This document shows, one piece after another, positions 20,305 to 27,828 of a stretch of 64,000 bases of DNA; the first letter of the stretch is position 1; every line of letters begins with the position of its first letter. Below the pieces are notes generated by a model. It was not told where the DNA came from. It did not search any database and saw only the letters and a program-made list of their open reading frames with translations. The stretch covers positions 1 through 64,000 of the forward strand of contig JAUNNN010000001.1 of the NCBI GenBank assembly GCA_030531435.1, read 5' to 3'. This DNA comes from Lachnospiraceae bacterium (GTDB lineage Bacteria; Bacillota; Clostridia; Lachnospirales; Lachnospiraceae). Both the position numbers and the translations under genes were made by a program.

Positions 20305-21183
20305 TTATTCATTATGTGAAAGTTCTGATAACATCGAAATCATTCTCCTTCTCTTTTTCATATTTACATCGTTTATAACACTGAAAATGGTTATACAAAT
20401 AACAACCGCTAAGGCAATGGCAACAATAGAGAAAAACCTTATATTTTCTTTAGTAAGATAGCCAAGATATATAAGCACCATAATAATTATTACAGGTAAT
20501 ATGCTAGGTTTTGATTTGGTCTTTTCTGTAAGCCTCTTTATTTCTTCATAATATATATCATCATTAGATTTTTTTGATGTATATTCACCATCTGGAGATT
20601 GCCTATACATTTTTTCATCTATTTCATTTTCATTCTGTAAAATATTTGTTTCTATCTTTCTATCAACAAGATTTTTAAATGAATAATCTTCACACAATAT
20701 ACGTTCATACAATTCATATGATACTTTCACTGCTTCTTCATCTTTGTGATCAATATTGTTAATAATAAACTCGAAAAAACTAGTTAAAGACTCGGAGAAA
20801 TCAGCCAAAAATTCTCCGCAATATAAAAATAGAAACCTGTCATCTAAAGCATTATAAAATACTGTATTCTCAGTAATTAAAACTCCTTTTTCAGATAACA
20901 GATATTCTTTAAGCTTTTCACCCAAATCTATAAAAGACACTATTAATGAGTCTAGAATATCTTTTGAAATCTCTTTTTTACAAACAAGAGAAGCGATGCT
21001 CTCATATCCTGATACGTCATATGTAAGAATCCATTTCCCATTTTCATATAGTTTTCTTGGAGAAATAAGCAGTGGAATTTCATTTTCTTCTAGCATTCTG
21101 TATTCAAAGGATTCTACAAATTCTTCATCAGCCTGGATTTTAATAAGGCTTTTGCCTAACCCTTTTTCATAATTTAGTTCCAT
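20305..21183 (-). CDS. DUF6382-like protein, last gene of the Tad operon
   Basis: A 292-residue protein. The N-terminal ~180 residues are soluble and resemble DUF6382, a domain found near Tad clusters in Lachnospiraceae (SPRKLYENGKWILTYDVSG is the clearest stretch). Two adjacent hydrophobic helices follow (~218-260), and a basic tail ends the protein. Relatives often carry a C-terminal FHA domain; none is seen here. It overlaps the upstream TadE-like gene by 10 nt, so it belongs to the pilus operon, perhaps linking it to phosphorylation signalling. Confidence 0.65.
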   Translation of the reverse strand: MELNYEKGLGKSLIKIQADEEFVESFEYRMLEENEIPLLISPRKLYENGKWILTYDVSGYESIASLVCKKEISKDILDSLIVSFIDLGEKLKEYLLSEKGVLITENTVFYNALDDRFLFLYCGEFLADFSESLTSFFEFIINNIDHKDEEAVKVSYELYERILCEDYSFKNLVDRKIETNILQNENEIDEKMYRQSPDGEYTSKKSNDDIYYEEIKRLTEKTKSKPSILPVIIIMVLIYLGYLTKENIRFFSIVAIALAVVICITIFSVINDVNMKKRRRMISMLSELSHNE

Positions 21184-21569
21184 ATGTATTCTGCCTCAGA
21201 TAAAAAATTCACGCTAAATTTCGTAGAATATCTAAATACGCTACCACTAATTATTCCAAACATTAACTGACTATCAGGAAGCATTCTGCCTGTAACTAAA
21301 GCTACCGCATTAGTACCCATAAAGCTCACATCAAAATTTATATCCCAACGGCATAATAGTGAACCTTCTATTTCGTTATAGAAATCATTAACTATTTCCT
21401 CTGATGTCTTATCACTGTTTACACCATTTAATAAACAGGAATATCCCACTCTTTCCACCACGCATGAATCATGCAAATAAAAAGAAAGAAATATTATTAG
21501 AATGATTATCCCAATAATAAATGGCATTAAAAGCGATAGTTCTATTGTCATACTACCCTTCTTTTTCAT
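21174..21569 (-). CDS. TadE-like pseudopilin
   Basis: A 131-residue protein with a short basic start (MKKKG), the prepilin-like SMTIELSLLMPF and one membrane helix, followed by a ~95-residue outside domain. This matches TadE/TadF minor pilins of Flp pili, in which the Glu five residues after the cleavage Gly is conserved (G5, E10 here). It lies 9 nt after the second prepilin peptidase gene. Confidence 0.8.
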   Translation of the reverse strand: MKKKGSMTIELSLLMPFIIGIIILIIFLSFYLHDSCVVERVGYSCLLNGVNSDKTSEEIVNDFYNEIEGSLLCRWDINFDVSFMGTNAVALVTGRMLPDSQLMFGIISGSVFRYSTKFSVNFLSEAEYIWN

Positions 21570-21578
21570 AATCGATTT

Positions 21579-21983
21579 TTATCTAAAAATAATAAATTCA
21601 GAAAATGAAATTAAAACAAACGGAACAAACGGCAGACTTTCCATGGCATCATTTGGCAAAACTTTTACTTTAATTTTCCCATATATGAGGCAAAATACTG
21701 CTGCCATATACAGAATAATCATGCAATTCATAAAACCGCTAAAGATGCCTATTGCCATGAAAACATAGCCATCTCCATCACCAATTTTATCTGGCGTGAG
21801 TTTAGATAAGATAAGTAGAATCAATCCAGGAATAAGACCAAAGGGTGATACCTTAACACCAATCAAAACCATGATAATTACAGGTATCAAAATATACCGA
21901 ATATCTATTTCTTTAGATTTAATATCTGAATATGCTAATGCAAAAAGCATTATTTCAATAACTAATACCCACATCTCTGACAA
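21579..21983 (-). CDS. A24 family prepilin peptidase, second copy (TadV-like)
   Basis: A 134-residue membrane aspartyl peptidase that cleaves and may methylate type IVb prepilins. Both catalytic aspartates are present: SDIKSKEID near residue 20 and the GxGD motif as GDGDGY near 70. It is small, like TadV/CpaA, lacking the extra N-terminal domain of PilD. It overlaps the TadE-like gene upstream by 22 nt. A second, more canonical peptidase opens the same operon. Confidence 0.85.
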   Translation of the reverse strand: MSEMWVLVIEIMLFALAYSDIKSKEIDIRYILIPVIIMVLIGVKVSPFGLIPGLILLILSKLTPDKIGDGDGYVFMAIGIFSGFMNCMIILYMAAVFCLIYGKIKVKVLPNDAMESLPFVPFVLISFSEFIIFR

Positions 21984-22786
21984 GGCCTCTTATCAGGTAC
22001 CGTACTTAACCTGACTGCAACAAAGTTTCTTTTCAGTCCACTACATTCAAGGGTTTTGTGATATTTATTTCCATCTGATGTAATATATACTTCCTGACTT
22101 TTAGGCTTTCTTTTACAATATCCACAAACACTGTATTTCTCTCCATTACTATTTCTTATTGTTTCAATTGATTCCATCGAAACCTTCTTTATATTTAGTC
22201 TAAGGTGTGTACATTCTTTGCTTTTGTGATATACTTCGCTATTTTCTGTGATATAAACTATATCTTCATCATAGGTATCACCATTCAAACCGTTTATATA
22301 TCCAATCCACGTATGAACAACTGCTTTTTCAGTAAAGCTAAATCTGAATATGCCAAAAAGATCATAAGGAAGCTTTGCATTATATGTGATAATAATTCGT
22401 TTTATTTCCCTGTCTGATAAATCAGATAAAGAAAAATCAATGCCACCATTTGCATTATCTACATATATTGAATCAACAACCTCATCACCAATATTACTAA
22501 GTATTCTCTGCTGAATAATCCTTATATCATCAACATCCCCTCTTGAGCATTCAATTGATAAACGTTTTGCTTCTTCATACAAGTTTTCACGAATTTTTAA
22601 ATCATTGCGGATTATACATATCAAAGAGAGAATGTTAATCATAAGGATTAGAAATATCGGTATGACTAAAGCAGCTTCAATAGATAAAATTCCGCATCTT
22701 CTGAACAATGCATGAGAAGAACTCCCTTTCCGATTTGATTTGGCACATTTTTTCTTTACTTTTTTTACATTATCAACTATCAACAT
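21962..22786 (-). CDS. TadE-like pseudopilin with duplicated His/Cys metal-binding tail
   Basis: A 274-residue protein. A basic N-terminus (~1-30) leads to a TadE-like segment (CGILSIEAALVIPIF) and one membrane helix. The ectodomain ends in two similar motifs, YHKSKECTHL...VCGYC (~190-222) and YHKTLECSGL...PCQRC (~240-273). Each has the H-x4-C ... C-x2-C pattern seen in Ada-like zinc-binding domains. No clear Shine-Dalgarno precedes the chosen ATG; an inverted repeat spans the start. The metal-binding tail on a minor pilin is unusual. Confidence 0.75.
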   Translation of the reverse strand: MLIVDNVKKVKKKCAKSNRKGSSSHALFRRCGILSIEAALVIPIFLILMINILSLICIIRNDLKIRENLYEEAKRLSIECSRGDVDDIRIIQQRILSNIGDEVVDSIYVDNANGGIDFSLSDLSDREIKRIIITYNAKLPYDLFGIFRFSFTEKAVVHTWIGYINGLNGDTYDEDIVYITENSEVYHKSKECTHLRLNIKKVSMESIETIRNSNGEKYSVCGYCKRKPKSQEVYITSDGNKYHKTLECSGLKRNFVAVRLSTVPDKRPCQRCGY

Positions 22787-22852: not shown

Positions 22853-23572
22853 CTAGATTATGCTATATTCACTTATTGCTTTAGAACCACATCCATAATC
22901 ACTTACAAAATATGCTTCAACACTTGCTGACATAAGCAAATTGTCAAAGGAAAAATCTAAAGAATAGTCTTCTCTCATATTTTTCTCTATTTCTTCAGCA
23001 ATTAAATGGATTTTGTCATCTAATGATGAACACTTATCAAACTTTTCAATAAATAACTCATCGAATTTATCCATTGCATAATATTCAACAAGTTCACTAT
23101 CATCACCATAGTTTCCACTTGCCTTTTCATATTCAAGAATCTGCCTTAAAAAACATTCATAACCATTTTCGTCTGCATAGACAGAACTTTTAACATCAAT
23201 ATTTTTAAGAGAGACTTTATATAAATTACTATTTGTTTCAGATGAAAGATTTGCATTAATATATGCTTCTACATGATTACAGAAATCAGCGTCACCACCA
23301 TTTGCGCCATGATATGAAGTATCTACAAATAATAGGTCGTATTTTTCATAAAGAGTCTTATTATACTCAGAAAAAGCTGATTTTATTGCAAGATCAAGTA
23401 ATGCCTCTGACTGAATCTTTATCGCCTGTACTCTTACTGCATATATAACAGTCATTAATAATGTACATAATATAGTCATTAATAGAGTAAGAAATACTGT
23501 GATTTCAGCTTTTTTTCTATAGGCTTCTTTGTAAGTATTATATTGCCGCACTATCATTAATAATCCGTTCAA
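22853..23572 (-). CDS. DUF5702-like Tad-associated membrane protein, short form
   Basis: A 239-residue protein (from a TTG start; an ATG lies 15 nt further at 23557). One helix (~25-45, ITVFLTLLMTILCTLLM) is followed by SEALLDLAIKSAFSEYNKTLYEKYDLLFVD, typical of DUF5702 proteins found in clostridial Tad loci. These are usually roughly twice as long, so the gene may be shortened. It overlaps the Flp pilin gene. It probably acts as a TadG/TadE-like surface component. Confidence 0.65.
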   Translation of the reverse strand: MNGLLMIVRQYNTYKEAYRKKAEITVFLTLLMTILCTLLMTVIYAVRVQAIKIQSEALLDLAIKSAFSEYNKTLYEKYDLLFVDTSYHGANGGDADFCNHVEAYINANLSSETNSNLYKVSLKNIDVKSSVYADENGYECFLRQILEYEKASGNYGDDSELVEYYAMDKFDELFIEKFDKCSSLDDKIHLIAEEIEKNMREDYSLDFSFDNLLMSASVEAYFVSDYGCGSKAISEYSII

Positions 23573-23708
23573 ATATAGTATTAATAATGCCAGTTAGCTG
23601 ATTTCTAAATATTACAACAAGTCCAATAAGCACTACTAAAATCAGAATTAATTCTACTGTTCCAATTCCTGATTCTTCCTTTAAAAACCGTTTAATTACA
23701 TTTTGCAT
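23538..23708 (-). CDS. flp: Flp-type class IVb pilin
   Basis: A 56-residue protein that starts MQNVIKRFLKEESG and continues IGTVELILILVVLIGLV. Cleavage after Gly14 would leave a mature pilin with Glu at position 5, as in Flp and other type IVb pilins, followed by a single helix and a short tail ending NDSAAI. AGGAGG lies 6 nt before the ATG. It lies between tadC and the DUF5702-like gene and is the likely major subunit of the pilus. It is easy to miss because it is so short. Confidence 0.88.
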   Translation of the reverse strand: MQNVIKRFLKEESGIGTVELILILVVLIGLVVIFRNQLTGIINTIFERIINDSAAI

Positions 23709-23731: not shown

Positions 23732-25078
23732 TTATAGTTTCATCGAATAAAACGCTGGAAAAATAATCATAACTATAACTACCAAAAGCATCATAAACAT
23801 AGGTACTAGAAGCTTTGTTGATGCTTCCTCTGAAAGCTTTCTTGCATTCATTTTTCTAACATTAAATGCTTCAATCACTTCTTTTGAAAACATTTCACCA
23901 ACATCTCTTTTTCCTTTAATAACTGCCTGTTCAATCTGATTAACAAAGCTTCTATAGACAGGAAGTCCGCACCTTTTAGAAAAATCTTCATATGCTTCAA
24001 GTTCAGGTACACCTTCCTTCATTTTGTTATATGAAATTAATAGTTCTTCAAAAACATATCTAGTTTCACCATCTGATGCTTTTGAAGCCATATACTCTTC
24101 ACATATTTTTATCCATATAGCTTTTATTGGCATTCCAGCATTAAAGTAGAGTGCAAACTTATTCAAAACCTTTGGATAGTCACTTATCATTTGTTGGTTT
24201 CTTATATCCACAAACTTCTTTATCTCATTTTTTCTTGCATAGTGAATTCCAAACAAAGCGGTAATAGATAACATGCCTACAATAATCGCATTATGAGGAT
24301 TTTTATTCTTAAAGCTGACTTTAATCCCACTAATGCTTTCAGGAAGTGTCATATATTCAGTCATTCTAGTTTTCTCGTTATATGCACCTAGCTCTCTTTC
24401 GATGGCTTCTATGTATTTTTCTTCAAATGATTTTTGGGGACTAAATACATTAACAAAGAGTTCATACTCTTCTTTGTATTCTTCATACGTGATAGTAACT
24501 AGAATGCGAACAAGAATTCCCTCCCCTAATGAATCTGTTTCCTCAATCTTCTTAGAATCAAGCTTTCCATCATTAAAAATAATCAAAGGATTACTAGTCT
24601 CATACTTTAAATAAAAAGGATAATCAGCGATTTTATTTTCAAATGAAAGAGGTTTACTAACATGATCTTTAGAAACATTTTCTGCTAATATTCTTTTATC
24701 AAGCTCTTTTTTAAGGTTATTTGCCAGAATCTTTACTGTTTTTTCATCATATTTCACTTCATCTACATCAAAAGTCACTGACTGTACATTTCCGTCTGCT
24801 TCTCTGTAAACATCAAGAGTTACTGGCCTTTTCCCCATTCCATATGAGTTTCTTTCAATTAATCCATTCTGGATTTCCGTAGTCTTTTTATCAGAAATAG
24901 AAAATACTATTGTAAGAATTACTCCCAAGATAAGTATCACAATTAGTAGCCTAAGTTCCGTCAAATAATACTCTTTCAGTTTTTCTTTAGATTCCCTAGC
25001 GTTATAAAGTTTTGAAAAATAAGCTACAATTTCATCTGTAACAATAATTTTTGCCAGTTTTTGACTAAAACCATTCAC
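23732..25078 (-). CDS. tadC: TadC-like type II secretion F-family platform protein with large insertion
   Basis: A 448-residue inner-membrane platform protein for the Tad pilus. The C-terminal T2SSF domain (~290-448) has KFALYFNAGMPIKAIW, a conserved YRSFVNQIEQAV, and ends in a helix near 430. Between helix 1 (~43-60) and helix 2 (~268-285) lies a ~200-residue, mostly beta-rich, presumably outward-facing insertion. Typical TadC proteins are near 300 residues and lack it. It follows tadB by 3 nt. Confidence 0.85.
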   Translation of the reverse strand: MNGFSQKLAKIIVTDEIVAYFSKLYNARESKEKLKEYYLTELRLLIVILILGVILTIVFSISDKKTTEIQNGLIERNSYGMGKRPVTLDVYREADGNVQSVTFDVDEVKYDEKTVKILANNLKKELDKRILAENVSKDHVSKPLSFENKIADYPFYLKYETSNPLIIFNDGKLDSKKIEETDSLGEGILVRILVTITYEEYKEEYELFVNVFSPQKSFEEKYIEAIERELGAYNEKTRMTEYMTLPESISGIKVSFKNKNPHNAIIVGMLSITALFGIHYARKNEIKKFVDIRNQQMISDYPKVLNKFALYFNAGMPIKAIWIKICEEYMASKASDGETRYVFEELLISYNKMKEGVPELEAYEDFSKRCGLPVYRSFVNQIEQAVIKGKRDVGEMFSKEVIEAFNVRKMNARKLSEEASTKLLVPMFMMLLVVIVMIIFPAFYSMKL

Positions 25079-25081
25079 AGT

Positions 25082-25822
25082 CTAAACCTCTATATCTGCG
25101 ATTCTTTTCGATAAAATCAAAGCAAAAATATATAATATGAGACATATCGTCATAACAATAACCCCCATGATATTGTGATATAAAACGCTCATAAATGAAC
25201 CACTACTATACCTTAGATACGCAATAATAAAGAATGGAATTACGCTCATAACCTTCTGTTCAAACAATTTGCCATTAAGAATCACCTGTATTTCTTTTTC
25301 TGTTTCTATCTTTTGGCTGATGATATAAACAGTTTTTGAAATTATGTCTCTGAAATTTCCACCACTTTTCTTTGCCTGAGTAAAAACAACAGAAAAGTCT
25401 TTAATCTCAGGAATTCCTGTTCTATCTGCCATATTAGATAAGCCCTTTTCAACTGGCCTGTTCATAGTCATCTGATGAATTAACTCTTTAAGCTCTATTA
25501 CTATGTATGAACTAGCTCCATATAGCCTTTCCATATCTTTATAACTTTCCATAAAAGCATTATCTACAGAGCATCCAGCGATAAAAGCTACCGATAAAGA
25601 CTCTATCATTTTGCAAAATTGAGTTCTTATTTCATATTGTCGCTTATTTATATACTCTTTCTTTTTAAGCTTTACATAGTAAAAATACCCGAATGCACCA
25701 ATAAAACATGCGTACATGCTGTCATAGAATAAGATCGCCACAGAAATGACAATTACAGCATAGGATATAATAAGAATTAATATTTCATTAAGCTTAAAAC
25801 TGTAAGATGAATAATCAATCAT
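25082..25822 (-). CDS. tadB: TadB-like type II secretion F-family platform protein
   Basis: A 246-residue membrane protein with helices near 15-50 and at the C-terminus (~195-240) around a cytoplasmic T2SSF helical bundle (MIESLSVAFIAGCSVDNAF, FTQAKKSGGNFRDII). It pairs with TadC to form the platform driven by the TadA ATPase. Its start overlaps the tadA stop by 8 nt. The length is a little shorter than usual, owing to a short N-terminus. Confidence 0.87.
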   Translation of the reverse strand: MIDYSSYSFKLNEILILIISYAVIVISVAILFYDSMYACFIGAFGYFYYVKLKKKEYINKRQYEIRTQFCKMIESLSVAFIAGCSVDNAFMESYKDMERLYGASSYIVIELKELIHQMTMNRPVEKGLSNMADRTGIPEIKDFSVVFTQAKKSGGNFRDIISKTVYIISQKIETEKEIQVILNGKLFEQKVMSVIPFFIIAYLRYSSGSFMSVLYHNIMGVIVMTICLILYIFALILSKRIADIEV

Positions 25823-27416
25823 ATACTCTGCTCATCTTATCCTTATGGACTAAGTCATTTCTTTTAATAAACCTTCCATCGATAAATTCATACAGCAAAT
25901 TCGTTTCAACCATTCCTTCACGCATTCCTGTGACCTCCCTTATTTCTGCTAGTTTTCTCGTAAAATCAGCCTGTCTTGCTAATTGGATTATTATATCTAC
26001 GCCTGCACATATTTGCATTCTAATGGCATCTAGCGGGATATTTTCTGAATTTAACATTATTAATGTTTCAAGTCGTAATATGGCATCATCGGCACTATTA
26101 GCATGAATTGTAGACATAGAGCCTTCTAATCCCACGTTAAAAGCCTGCAGCATATCTATGGCTTCAGCACCTCTGACTTCTCCTACGATAATTCTATCTG
26201 GCCTCATTCTTAATGCAGTCTTTATTAAATCTCTAACAGATATTTCACTGCAGCCCTCTGCATTTGTATTTCTTGTTTCAAGACGTACTAGGTTTCTGAT
26301 TCCTTGTATTTTTAATTCAGCGCTATCTTCGATGGTAATAATTCTTTCATACTCCTCTAGATAACCTGAGATAGCGTTCAAAAAAGTAGTCTTCCCAGTG
26401 CCAGTTCCTCCACTAATTAGTATATTATATTTTGCACGTATGAGCTGTTTGAGAAGATTTGCTATATCGATATCAATTGCACCAATACTAATTAAAGCCT
26501 TTATATCAAAGGGTGTCTCTGGAAAACGACGAATTGTCATAGTAGGTCCATCAAGACTAACAGGATCAAGCACTACATTCACTCTGGAGCCATCCTCTAA
26601 CCTTGCATCAACAATAGGTGATGACATATTTACAGTTCTATTTGCAGCTGACACAACCTTTTGAATAATATCAATAAGTTTCTCCTTAGAATCAAACGTC
26701 TTTTTTGACTCATACAGATGGCCTTTCTTCTCGTAAAATATATTTCTATATCCATTAACCATTATTTCTGTTATTTCTTCGTCATCTAAAAGTTCTGAAA
26801 GAATGTCATACCGTCTAATGGCATCATATATTTGTTTTCTAAGTCTTACTCTTTGATTTGCTGGTATATGCGAAATATCCTCTCTTGAGCTCATGTTTTC
26901 ATCTATTATTTCGTATACAAAATCATCGTTTAAATCATCCTCAAGAATTAATTCATTCTGAACCTCTTCAGTTATTTCTCGTCTTATTTGAACCAGCTCT
27001 CTGCTATATAGCTGTTCATCAGTACTGTCTGAAGGTAATGGTTTTAATGAATTTTTCCCATTTATATGCGTTTTATATAAATATTCATTATTACGCACTC
27101 CTGTGTCATAATTCATATTTATAACATTACCCCTGATAGCCTCTGCGGACTGATATTTATATATAACTCTATTCCCTACTTCATCTTTATTATCTGTAAG
27201 CATATATGTATCATTACACGCACTGCTATAGAATAATTCCTCCTCTGACGTAATTAATATGTCTATATTTTCCCAGTCTTCATTTGATATAAGGGCTTCT
27301 TTTTCATGGTAATAAACGACATCATATTCCTTCGATTTTAAATATAAATATTCAGCCAGCCTTTTTGAATAATTCTCATCTCTATCACAAATCAGGATCC
27401 GCTTCTTACCGTTCAT
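25815..27416 (-). CDS. tadA: TadA/CpaF pilus assembly ATPase with receiver-like N-terminal domain
   Basis: A 533-residue protein. Residues ~140-533 are a CpaF-type secretion ATPase: Walker A SGGTGTGKTTF near 335, Walker B and Asp box RPDRIIVGEVRGAEAIDML near 400, and the His-box STIHANSADDAILRLE near 430. Residues 1-~90 start RILICDRDENYSKRLAEYL and look like the atypical receiver domain normally found at the N-terminus of TadZ/CpaE. No separate TadZ gene is present, so the localisation domain may have moved to the ATPase. Confidence 0.87.
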   Translation of the reverse strand: MNGKKRILICDRDENYSKRLAEYLYLKSKEYDVVYYHEKEALISNEDWENIDILITSEEELFYSSACNDTYMLTDNKDEVGNRVIYKYQSAEAIRGNVINMNYDTGVRNNEYLYKTHINGKNSLKPLPSDSTDEQLYSRELVQIRREITEEVQNELILEDDLNDDFVYEIIDENMSSREDISHIPANQRVRLRKQIYDAIRRYDILSELLDDEEITEIMVNGYRNIFYEKKGHLYESKKTFDSKEKLIDIIQKVVSAANRTVNMSSPIVDARLEDGSRVNVVLDPVSLDGPTMTIRRFPETPFDIKALISIGAIDIDIANLLKQLIRAKYNILISGGTGTGKTTFLNAISGYLEEYERIITIEDSAELKIQGIRNLVRLETRNTNAEGCSEISVRDLIKTALRMRPDRIIVGEVRGAEAIDMLQAFNVGLEGSMSTIHANSADDAILRLETLIMLNSENIPLDAIRMQICAGVDIIIQLARQADFTRKLAEIREVTGMREGMVETNLLYEFIDGRFIKRNDLVHKDKMSRVYD

Positions 27417-27828
27417 ATTTAACCATCCAACATATAAACCTCACTAGTAATCCCGAAAAAATCGATACTACGAATGGATACTCCTTTTTTGAATAAAACC
27501 TGTAAATAATGTATTCTGGAATAGATAAACAACTCACAAGTGCAAATGCATCTATAATTCCATATATTCCTAGCGCATATCCCAATACACATAGAAGCTT
27601 TATATCTCCTGCTCCAACACATTTTAAACAAAATGGTATAAATAGAACTACTAGTGGAGCAAACATTCCCAAAATAGATGCAAATACATTTAGATTCTCA
27701 TTACAAAGTCCAAATACTATTACTAATAAAAGTGAAATTAGGAGAAATGTATTATTAATCTTCCTAAATTTGATATCCATAATCATCGCAATAAATGCAA
27801 TAACTAAAGACAATATGTAATTCACCAT
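27406..27828 (-). CDS. A24 family prepilin peptidase, first gene of the Tad operon
   Basis: A 140-residue membrane aspartyl peptidase. Catalytic motifs are MDIKFRKINN near residue 17 and CVGAGDIKLL near 70 (GxGD). It processes Flp-type prepilins at the cytoplasmic side of the membrane. Its stop overlaps the tadA start by 11 nt. The ATG has no good Shine-Dalgarno; a short upstream ORF with a GGGAG site overlaps its start out of frame, which may control translation. Confidence 0.86.
   Translation of the reverse strand: MVNYILSLVIAFIAMIMDIKFRKINNTFLLISLLLVIVFGLCNENLNVFASILGMFAPLVVLFIPFCLKCVGAGDIKLLCVLGYALGIYGIIDAFALVSCLSIPEYIIYRFYSKKEYPFVVSIFSGLLVRFICWMVKYER

Follow-up and report, generated by a model that had tools for sequence, protein, structure and literature searches.

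Why would a pilin of a Lachnospiraceae bacterium end in two similar copies of a His/Cys motif, and what could such a tail do outside the cell? The question is raised by one gene in the first 64,000 nucleotides of contig JAUNNN010000001.1 (assembly GCA_030531435.1), the whole stretch that we analysed and hereafter call the window. A sequence-only reading had described its product as a TadE-like minor pilin with a duplicated, Ada-like metal-binding tail, which might bind zinc, form disulfides, or attach to a surface. We asked how far this description holds, where else the tail and its modules occur, and which function best fits them.

A tailed minor pilin in a Tad operon

The coordinates initially assigned to the gene proved correct, and the gene lies on the minus strand (Table 1). 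The surrounding genes share that strand and follow the order A24 peptidase, TadA, TadB, TadC, Flp, DUF5702-type protein, tailed pilin, A24 peptidase, second TadE (TadE2), and DUF6382 protein. The N terminus of the tailed protein reads as a class III prepilin signal, RRCG/ILSIEAALVIPIF, with the cut predicted after Gly32. Glu37, position +5 of the predicted mature pilin, was invariant in the two alignments described below (87/87 and 81/81 rows). The Pfam TadE profile (PF07811) gave the window protein 11.5 bits, below its gathering cut-off of 22.9; at E<=1, it matched 27 of the 30 members of a set of relatives, the window protein included, with a best E-value of 2.3e-7. The signal with its Glu+5, the Tad genes on both sides, and the PF07811 matches among the relatives all support the original assignment to the TadE-like minor pilins. 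Judged by its sequence and its neighbors, the gene is a TadE-type minor pilin within a Tad (type IVc) pilus operon.

Table 1 Features of the Tad locus and of the tailed pilin, listed in the direction of the minus strand; the tailed gene runs from 22786 to 21962.
Feature	Position in window	Strand	Basis
Prepilin peptidase, A24 family, first copy	27406..27828	minus	PF01478, E 1.2e-11
TadA-type pilus ATPase	25815..27416	minus	PF00437, E 5.4e-54; TIGR03819, E 6.9e-82, under its cut-off
TadB-like platform protein	25082..25822	minus	T2SSF, E 0.0011, under cut-off; position
TadC-like platform protein	23732..25078	minus	T2SSF, E 0.00056, under cut-off
Flp-type major pilin, 56 aa, MQNVIKRFLKEESGIGTVEL...	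23538..23708	minus	Sequence
Short relative of the DUF5702-type pilus-locus protein, without the DUF5702 half	22853..23572	minus	Sequence comparison
Modular minor pilin of the TadE type with its tandem tail, 274 aa	21962..22786	minus	
Leader, residues 1-32, ending RRCG	22691..22786	minus	Sequence; cleavage predicted
Long N-terminal helix (filament core), residues 33-81	22544..22690	minus	Helix at 36-81 in the AF2 model, with pLDDT 82-97 over ten-residue blocks
Small alpha/beta pilin head, residues 82-162, up to the conserved W-x-G	22301..22543	minus	AF2; G162 invariant in the 81-row alignment
Flexible linker, residues 163-174	22265..22300	minus	AF2 pLDDT <50 at 164-172
Module 1, residues 175-226 (H187, C192, C221, C224)	22109..22264	minus	Conservation, AF2, profile comparison
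Module 2, residues 231-274 (H243, C248, C269, C272)	21965..22096	minus	Conservation, AF2, profile comparison
Second A24 prepilin peptidase	21579..21983	minus	PF01478, E 4.1e-7; start overlaps with the tailed gene's end
Second TadE-type minor pilin, no tail	21174..21569	minus	PF07811, E 3.7e-5, over cut-off
DUF6382 protein	20305..21183	minus	PF19909, E 1e-36

The same neighbors recur in the loci of the best 80 of 293 relatives. Counting only genes on the strand of the tailed gene, and with contig ends cutting some of the 80 loci, we found TadA in 62, TadB in 62, TadC in 65, Flp in 69, the DUF5702-type protein in 71, A24 in 52, TadE2 in 56, and DUF6382 in 55. The A24 count refers to the second peptidase, next to the tailed pilin, which may be a dedicated processing enzyme of this pilin.

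Two neighbors deserve a separate remark. The gene directly upstream of the tailed pilin encodes 239 aa, while 61 of its 71 relatives span 455-549 aa (measured from stop to stop); DUF5702 was found in all four relatives tested, within the half that the window protein lacks. This short version appears to be the product of a deletion or decay of the pilus-locus neighbor. Downstream, the TadE protein without a tail terminates with FCP(K/N)Y in part of the genus (L017-L020, L023, L029, and L049), an ending that is absent in the window.

The tail is a tandem pair of homologous modules

Both copies in the tail follow the plan Y-H-x4-C-x(19-28)-C-x2-C. Module 1 carries YHKSKECTHL followed by the C221-x2-C224 pair, and module 2 carries YHKTLECSGL followed by C269-x2-C272. 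The two H-x4-C ... C-x2-C motifs of the sequence-only reading are thus confirmed, with a spacing of 56 residues instead of about 50. Their likeness, which had suggested a duplication, withstood comparison with shuffled sequences: a pairwise alignment of the tail halves scored 69, whereas none of 5000 paired shuffles reached this score (best shuffle, 48). Family profiles of module 1 and module 2 matched each other with a probability of 98.6 (E 4.8e-16, valid for a single comparison). At the DNA level, the duplication is traced by a direct repeat of 50 nt with 70% identity. When frames of at least 60 codons in the window were scanned for H-x3/4-C-x14-34-C-x2-C, the pattern appeared once each in two other frames and twice solely in the tailed gene. 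By these comparisons, the two modules are homologous to each other. In a module tree (59 rows, 46 columns), module 1 copies formed one clade (96/86), and the modules of a distant family (f8) grouped with neither module 1 nor module 2. Separately, residues 225-272 matched phrog_14556, a PHROGs phage family of 451 positions with no assigned function (E 0.00044).

AlphaFold2, given 81 sequences, modeled the full protein with a mean pLDDT of 85.6; the tail blocks reached 77-96, and the leader was of low confidence. Beyond the low-confidence linker, the tail folds in the model into two like units, each combining a short helix with three short strands, and the tail modeled alone kept a pLDDT of 86.7. 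Foldseek searches of the PDB with the full and tail models returned no match at E<=0.001 (best E for the full model, 0.26), and PDB sequence searches gave no significant match. In VIA comparisons, the best match of the full model was pantothenate synthetase, over the head (Z 7.6, rmsd 2.4, 83 aligned); the PilB minor pilin of Streptococcus sanguinis gave Z 4.8 (rmsd 3.4, 85 aligned). Scores of this level are to be expected from common arrangements. The tail alone reached a Z of 2.6 at best (rmsd 3.4, 48 aligned), and the Ada fold was not among the Foldseek and VIA matches listed for the tail model. A likeness to PHD fingers (Pygopus, E 0.29) was dropped.

The tail is frequent, strictly conserved, and gained or lost as a unit

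The sequence-only reading had named the conservation of the cysteines and histidines in orthologues as the point on which it would stand or fall. The outcome did not refute it: all eight positions (Table 1) were invariant in 81 of 81 rows, comprising the window protein and the best 80 of 293 relatives, and so was the H-x4-C spacing of both modules. The eight residues were equally invariant in 87 of 87 sequences of an overlapping second set, from which L086, L089, and L090 had been excluded beforehand; the two sets have species in common and are hence not independent. Unlike these positions, cysteines in the mature head are variable, with 0 to 6 in each protein. Small departures from the plan do occur: module 1 has C-x-C in place of C-x2-C in L140 and L148, and the Tyr before one His is replaced by Cys in four relatives (L078, L170, L183, and L189).

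The tailed gene was matched in 85 of 145 genomes, its own included: 81 of the 90 from the same family, one of them (G036) only as a contig-end fragment covering residues 30-75, and 4 of the 55 from the rest of the order. To judge from their titles, the 80 named loci (best 80 of 293 relatives) are mostly from Lachnospiraceae. Of the 90 family genomes, 85 have a TadC match, and since four of these 85 had no match to the tailed gene, we regard the tail as usual in the family but not universal. The four are G006 and G084, where TadC lies at a contig edge; G031, a genome that is 70% complete; and G043, which has only a partial TadC match and, in a Tad-like locus, a pilin of 436 aa (L093) with another kind of C-terminus. 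G045 encodes a second pilin without a tail, L086.

Because the relatives had been recruited with the tail in the query, we used a head-only profile as a control on all loci collected by then (E<=1e-3). It found 243 frames, of which 164 carry both modules by the strict pattern, 7 carry one by pattern and both by eye, and 72 carry none. One of the seven (L057) has a stop codon between its two modules. Most of the 72 appear to resemble the shorter downstream TadE2 proteins; nine were inspected in full. As a side observation, one genome of the window's genus (G002) holds three tailed-pilin copies (L026, L035, and L041), some of which may be foreign, as this genome is rated 6% contaminated.

Outside these loci, a single-protein scan of the genome contigs and a profile scan of IMG/VR revealed no relative of the tailed protein. 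A plasmid search gave two weak matches (E 0.4 and 0.7), one of them falling on a Cetobacterium frame of 68 aa that has just one module (L089). Three records labeled as phage matched the tailed gene. One of them, an unannotated "Bacteriophage sp." record (MT835518.1, L088), contains a window-type Tad operon and further genes of the locus; it is probably mislabeled bacterial DNA. A mobile phage gene was considered and dropped as a reading.

Orthologues beyond the family reveal how the tail relates to the rest of the protein. In two other families, the pilins of L099 (two copies), L104, and L106 end directly after the W-x-G or W-G at which the head of the window protein closes. As in the window, the pilins of L104 and L106 and one of the L099 copies are followed by an A24-like gene. 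The genome of L099 (G143) also has a tailed copy elsewhere (L087). The tail is thus an add-on, for these orthologues stop where it would start. Other pilins carry a different C-terminus (L097 and L101, and L102 as judged from its last 60 residues), an altered module pair (L095), or, in another family, two modules with H-x3-C (L098, L100, L103, and L105). The tail was therefore gained or lost in one piece, while the pilin that bears it stayed stable.

Similar modules occur on exported enzymes and link the tail to Ada

With the module 2 profile, the module was detected in 31 of 148 genomes sampled from the class, one of them the window's own, where the tailed gene was the only match (E<=1). We assembled, by two recruitment routes, 44 non-pilin carriers of an H-x3/4-C module with at least 150 residues. 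Pfam (E<=1e-4) assigned 15 of them to SNase, 8 to non-specific endonuclease, and 16 to the metallo-beta-lactamase (MBL) fold. A motif check against these assignments recovered 15 MBL, 11 SNase, and none of the endonuclease proteins; it saw SNase motifs and MBL motifs together in none of the proteins, and covered the overlap of the classes only partly. An N-terminal hydrophobic stretch was present in 33/35 and 8/9 carriers from the two routes, compared with 0/4 true Ada proteins and 17/68 other frames of the same loci. Of the 39 carriers checked, 38 had no more than five residues between the end of the module and the C-terminus. The module is thus found mostly on exported enzymes, of which many are nucleases. 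Many of the MBL-fold carriers presumably resemble the C-terminal part of ComEC.

Calling the tail Ada-like was only partly borne out. The Pfam Ada_Zn_binding profile (PF02805) had no match in the window protein at E<=1, and matched just 2 of the 30 relatives at that threshold (best E 0.00097). A direct profile comparison with eight true Ada domains was weak, giving 29% for module 2 and 10% for module 1. What stands is a kinship through intermediates, together with the C-x2-C ligand pair of Ada, present in both tail modules. The intermediates are H-x3-C modules of exported proteins, gathered from Bacillota genomes with the Pfam Ada model. For module 1, their profile gave a match of 86% (E 5e-6), and for module 2 one of 56% (E 1e-4); it matched Ada at 98.6%, as it must by construction, since the Ada model had recruited these modules. 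As an aside, Pfam labels 25 of the 44 exported carriers (loci L193-L240 and L246-L255) as Ada_Zn_binding despite their His in place of the first Cys.

The His of the exported modules aligns with the first Cys of the Ada C-x3-C (TGKYHRASC / TGIYCRPVC), which we take to be the acceptor, C38. Both tail modules have His at this acceptor position, within H-x4-C, in 81/81 rows (window and best 80 of 293). We thus read the tail as having the plan of an Ada-type metal knuckle without the acceptor Cys; by these profiles, it is not an Ada domain. In Ada itself, C38 is the residue that takes over methyl groups of the DNA backbone (PMC4437013).

A probable binding tip and its alternatives

Taken together, we consider it probable that the product of the gene is a modular minor pilin of the Tad type whose twin Cys3His modules, presumably loaded with zinc, serve as a binding tip exposed to the outside. 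A prepilin peptidase of the locus would cut the protein after Gly32, the long helix would anchor it in the filament, and the floppy linker would hold the two compact modules outside the cell. By analogy with other species, its most likely place would be the pilus tip, together with the second TadE and the DUF5702-type protein. Each module would bind one zinc ion through His-Cys-Cys-Cys, at a site expected to be structural, not methyl-accepting, since His replaces the Ada acceptor Cys. The twin modules would then form an exposed binding face, with a cell-surface polymer or extracellular nucleic acid as the best candidates for its ligand. That the pilus may carry such a specialized tip is suggested by the similar module on exported enzymes, so many of which are nucleases.

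How the eight conserved residues are used separates several of the alternatives. Were the tail a true methyl-acceptor domain of the Ada type, its C-x2-C pairs and the weak Pfam Ada matches in two relatives would be expected; the first ligand is His in every aligned row, direct matches to Ada profiles are weak, and the protein is expected outside the cell. We consider this reading next to impossible, and methyl transfer of the Ada type is contradicted by the missing acceptor Cys. The six cysteines could also form disulfides, within or between modules or with neighboring pilins, and so stiffen an exposed tip, as would suit an exported protein with an even number of them (exactly six in 63/81 tails). 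However, three Cys and an invariant His per module suit a Cys3His metal site better, and no oxidoreductase was recognized among the locus genes scanned for domains. To our knowledge, strict anaerobes seldom rely on disulfides. We judge a disulfide-locked tail quite improbable and favor zinc, given the invariant His, the three Cys per module, and the His where Ada has a Cys ligand; a His/Cys exchange at the place of the first Ada Cys fits a metal ligand better than a disulfide. Somewhat less improbable, yet still unlikely, is a purely structural cap, whose modules stabilize the protein or the pilus tip and bind nothing outside, or else respond to metal or redox state. That the ligand residues are so strictly conserved would agree with such a cap; the orthologues of other families that lack the tail argue that assembly as such does not depend on it.

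A special case of the binding-tip reading is that the modules contact DNA or RNA, so that the pilus grips extracellular DNA for uptake, feeding, or anchoring in a biofilm. The proportion of SNase, endonuclease, and MBL-fold proteins among the 44 carriers speaks for it, as does the action of Ada itself on methyl groups of the DNA backbone (PMC4437013). DNA uptake in Micrococcus luteus requires Tad genes, according to PMC4322843. This Tad-dependent uptake and the other carriers of the module make the idea attractive, and genes for ComEC and ComEA lie adjacent to each other in the window's genome. Yet ComEC and ComEA were each found in 141 of the 145 genomes searched and hence do not discriminate, and other T2SSE-family ATPases exceed the cut-off in this genome, so that Tad need not be its sole type IV machine. 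Moreover, on the enzymes the module could be an anchor or a stability unit, and the pilin modules differ by eye from the exported consensus before C-x2-C. We rate a nucleic-acid capture tip as improbable as the disulfide-locked tail. The fuller claim, that Tad pili of Lachnospiraceae grip extracellular DNA or RNA by a twin zinc module at the tip that is kin to those of secreted nucleases, we hold to be slightly less probable still.

The tail is a frequent and strictly conserved part of the Tad pili of Lachnospiraceae. If it is indeed a binding tip, it offers a small, expressible domain with which to ask what these bacteria hold. Its link to a module otherwise found largely on exported nuclease and MBL-fold enzymes makes nucleic-acid binding by Tad pili directly testable; were such binding true, the pili would capture nucleic acids, and would do so in bacteria that have retained ComEC and ComEA.

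Comparison with known systems

Gram-positive Tad operons, some with TadE-like pseudopilins, are most widespread in Clostridia, according to PMC3244431. Our literature search, which covered titles and abstract openings with partial coverage and few subscription papers, found no description of a twin-module tail and little on the Tad pili of Lachnospiraceae. With the TadE/TadF minor pilins (PF07811), the window protein shares the class III signal with Glu+5 and the long N-terminal helix, and its operon shares the A24 peptidase, the Flp pilin, and TadA/B/C. It differs from them in a C-terminal tail of 100 residues, whose two His-Cys3 modules lie outside PF07811.

Modular pilins with grafted domains have been described in a review (PMC10191384), and a study of Myxococcus proposes that TadE/F/G minor pilins form tips showing variable domains, in other bacteria too (PMC12075869). 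The window protein shows the corresponding features: a linker of low pLDDT at residues 164-172, orthologues without the tail, and a module that recurs on exported enzymes. PilB and PilC of S. sanguinis and the Myxococcus Tad "Tip" complexes likewise have, on a minor pilin, a non-pilin domain with a short linker that some lineages carry and others lack; their grafts are lectin, VWA, or Kil tip domains, whereas the graft here is a duplicated small His-Cys3 module. The exported H-x3-C modules of Bacillota (on MBL-fold, SNase, and endonuclease proteins) agree with the tail in the Y-H ... C ... C-x2-C plan, the C-terminal position, and the N-terminal hydrophobic stretch of the carrier, and differ in being single, borne by enzymes, and mostly H-x3-C. 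With Ada_Zn_binding (PF02805), finally, the tail has in common a knuckle ending in C-x2-C, related through these intermediates, while it differs in its His for the first Cys, its H-x4-C spacing, its place on an exported pilin, its duplication, and a likeness below Pfam detection.
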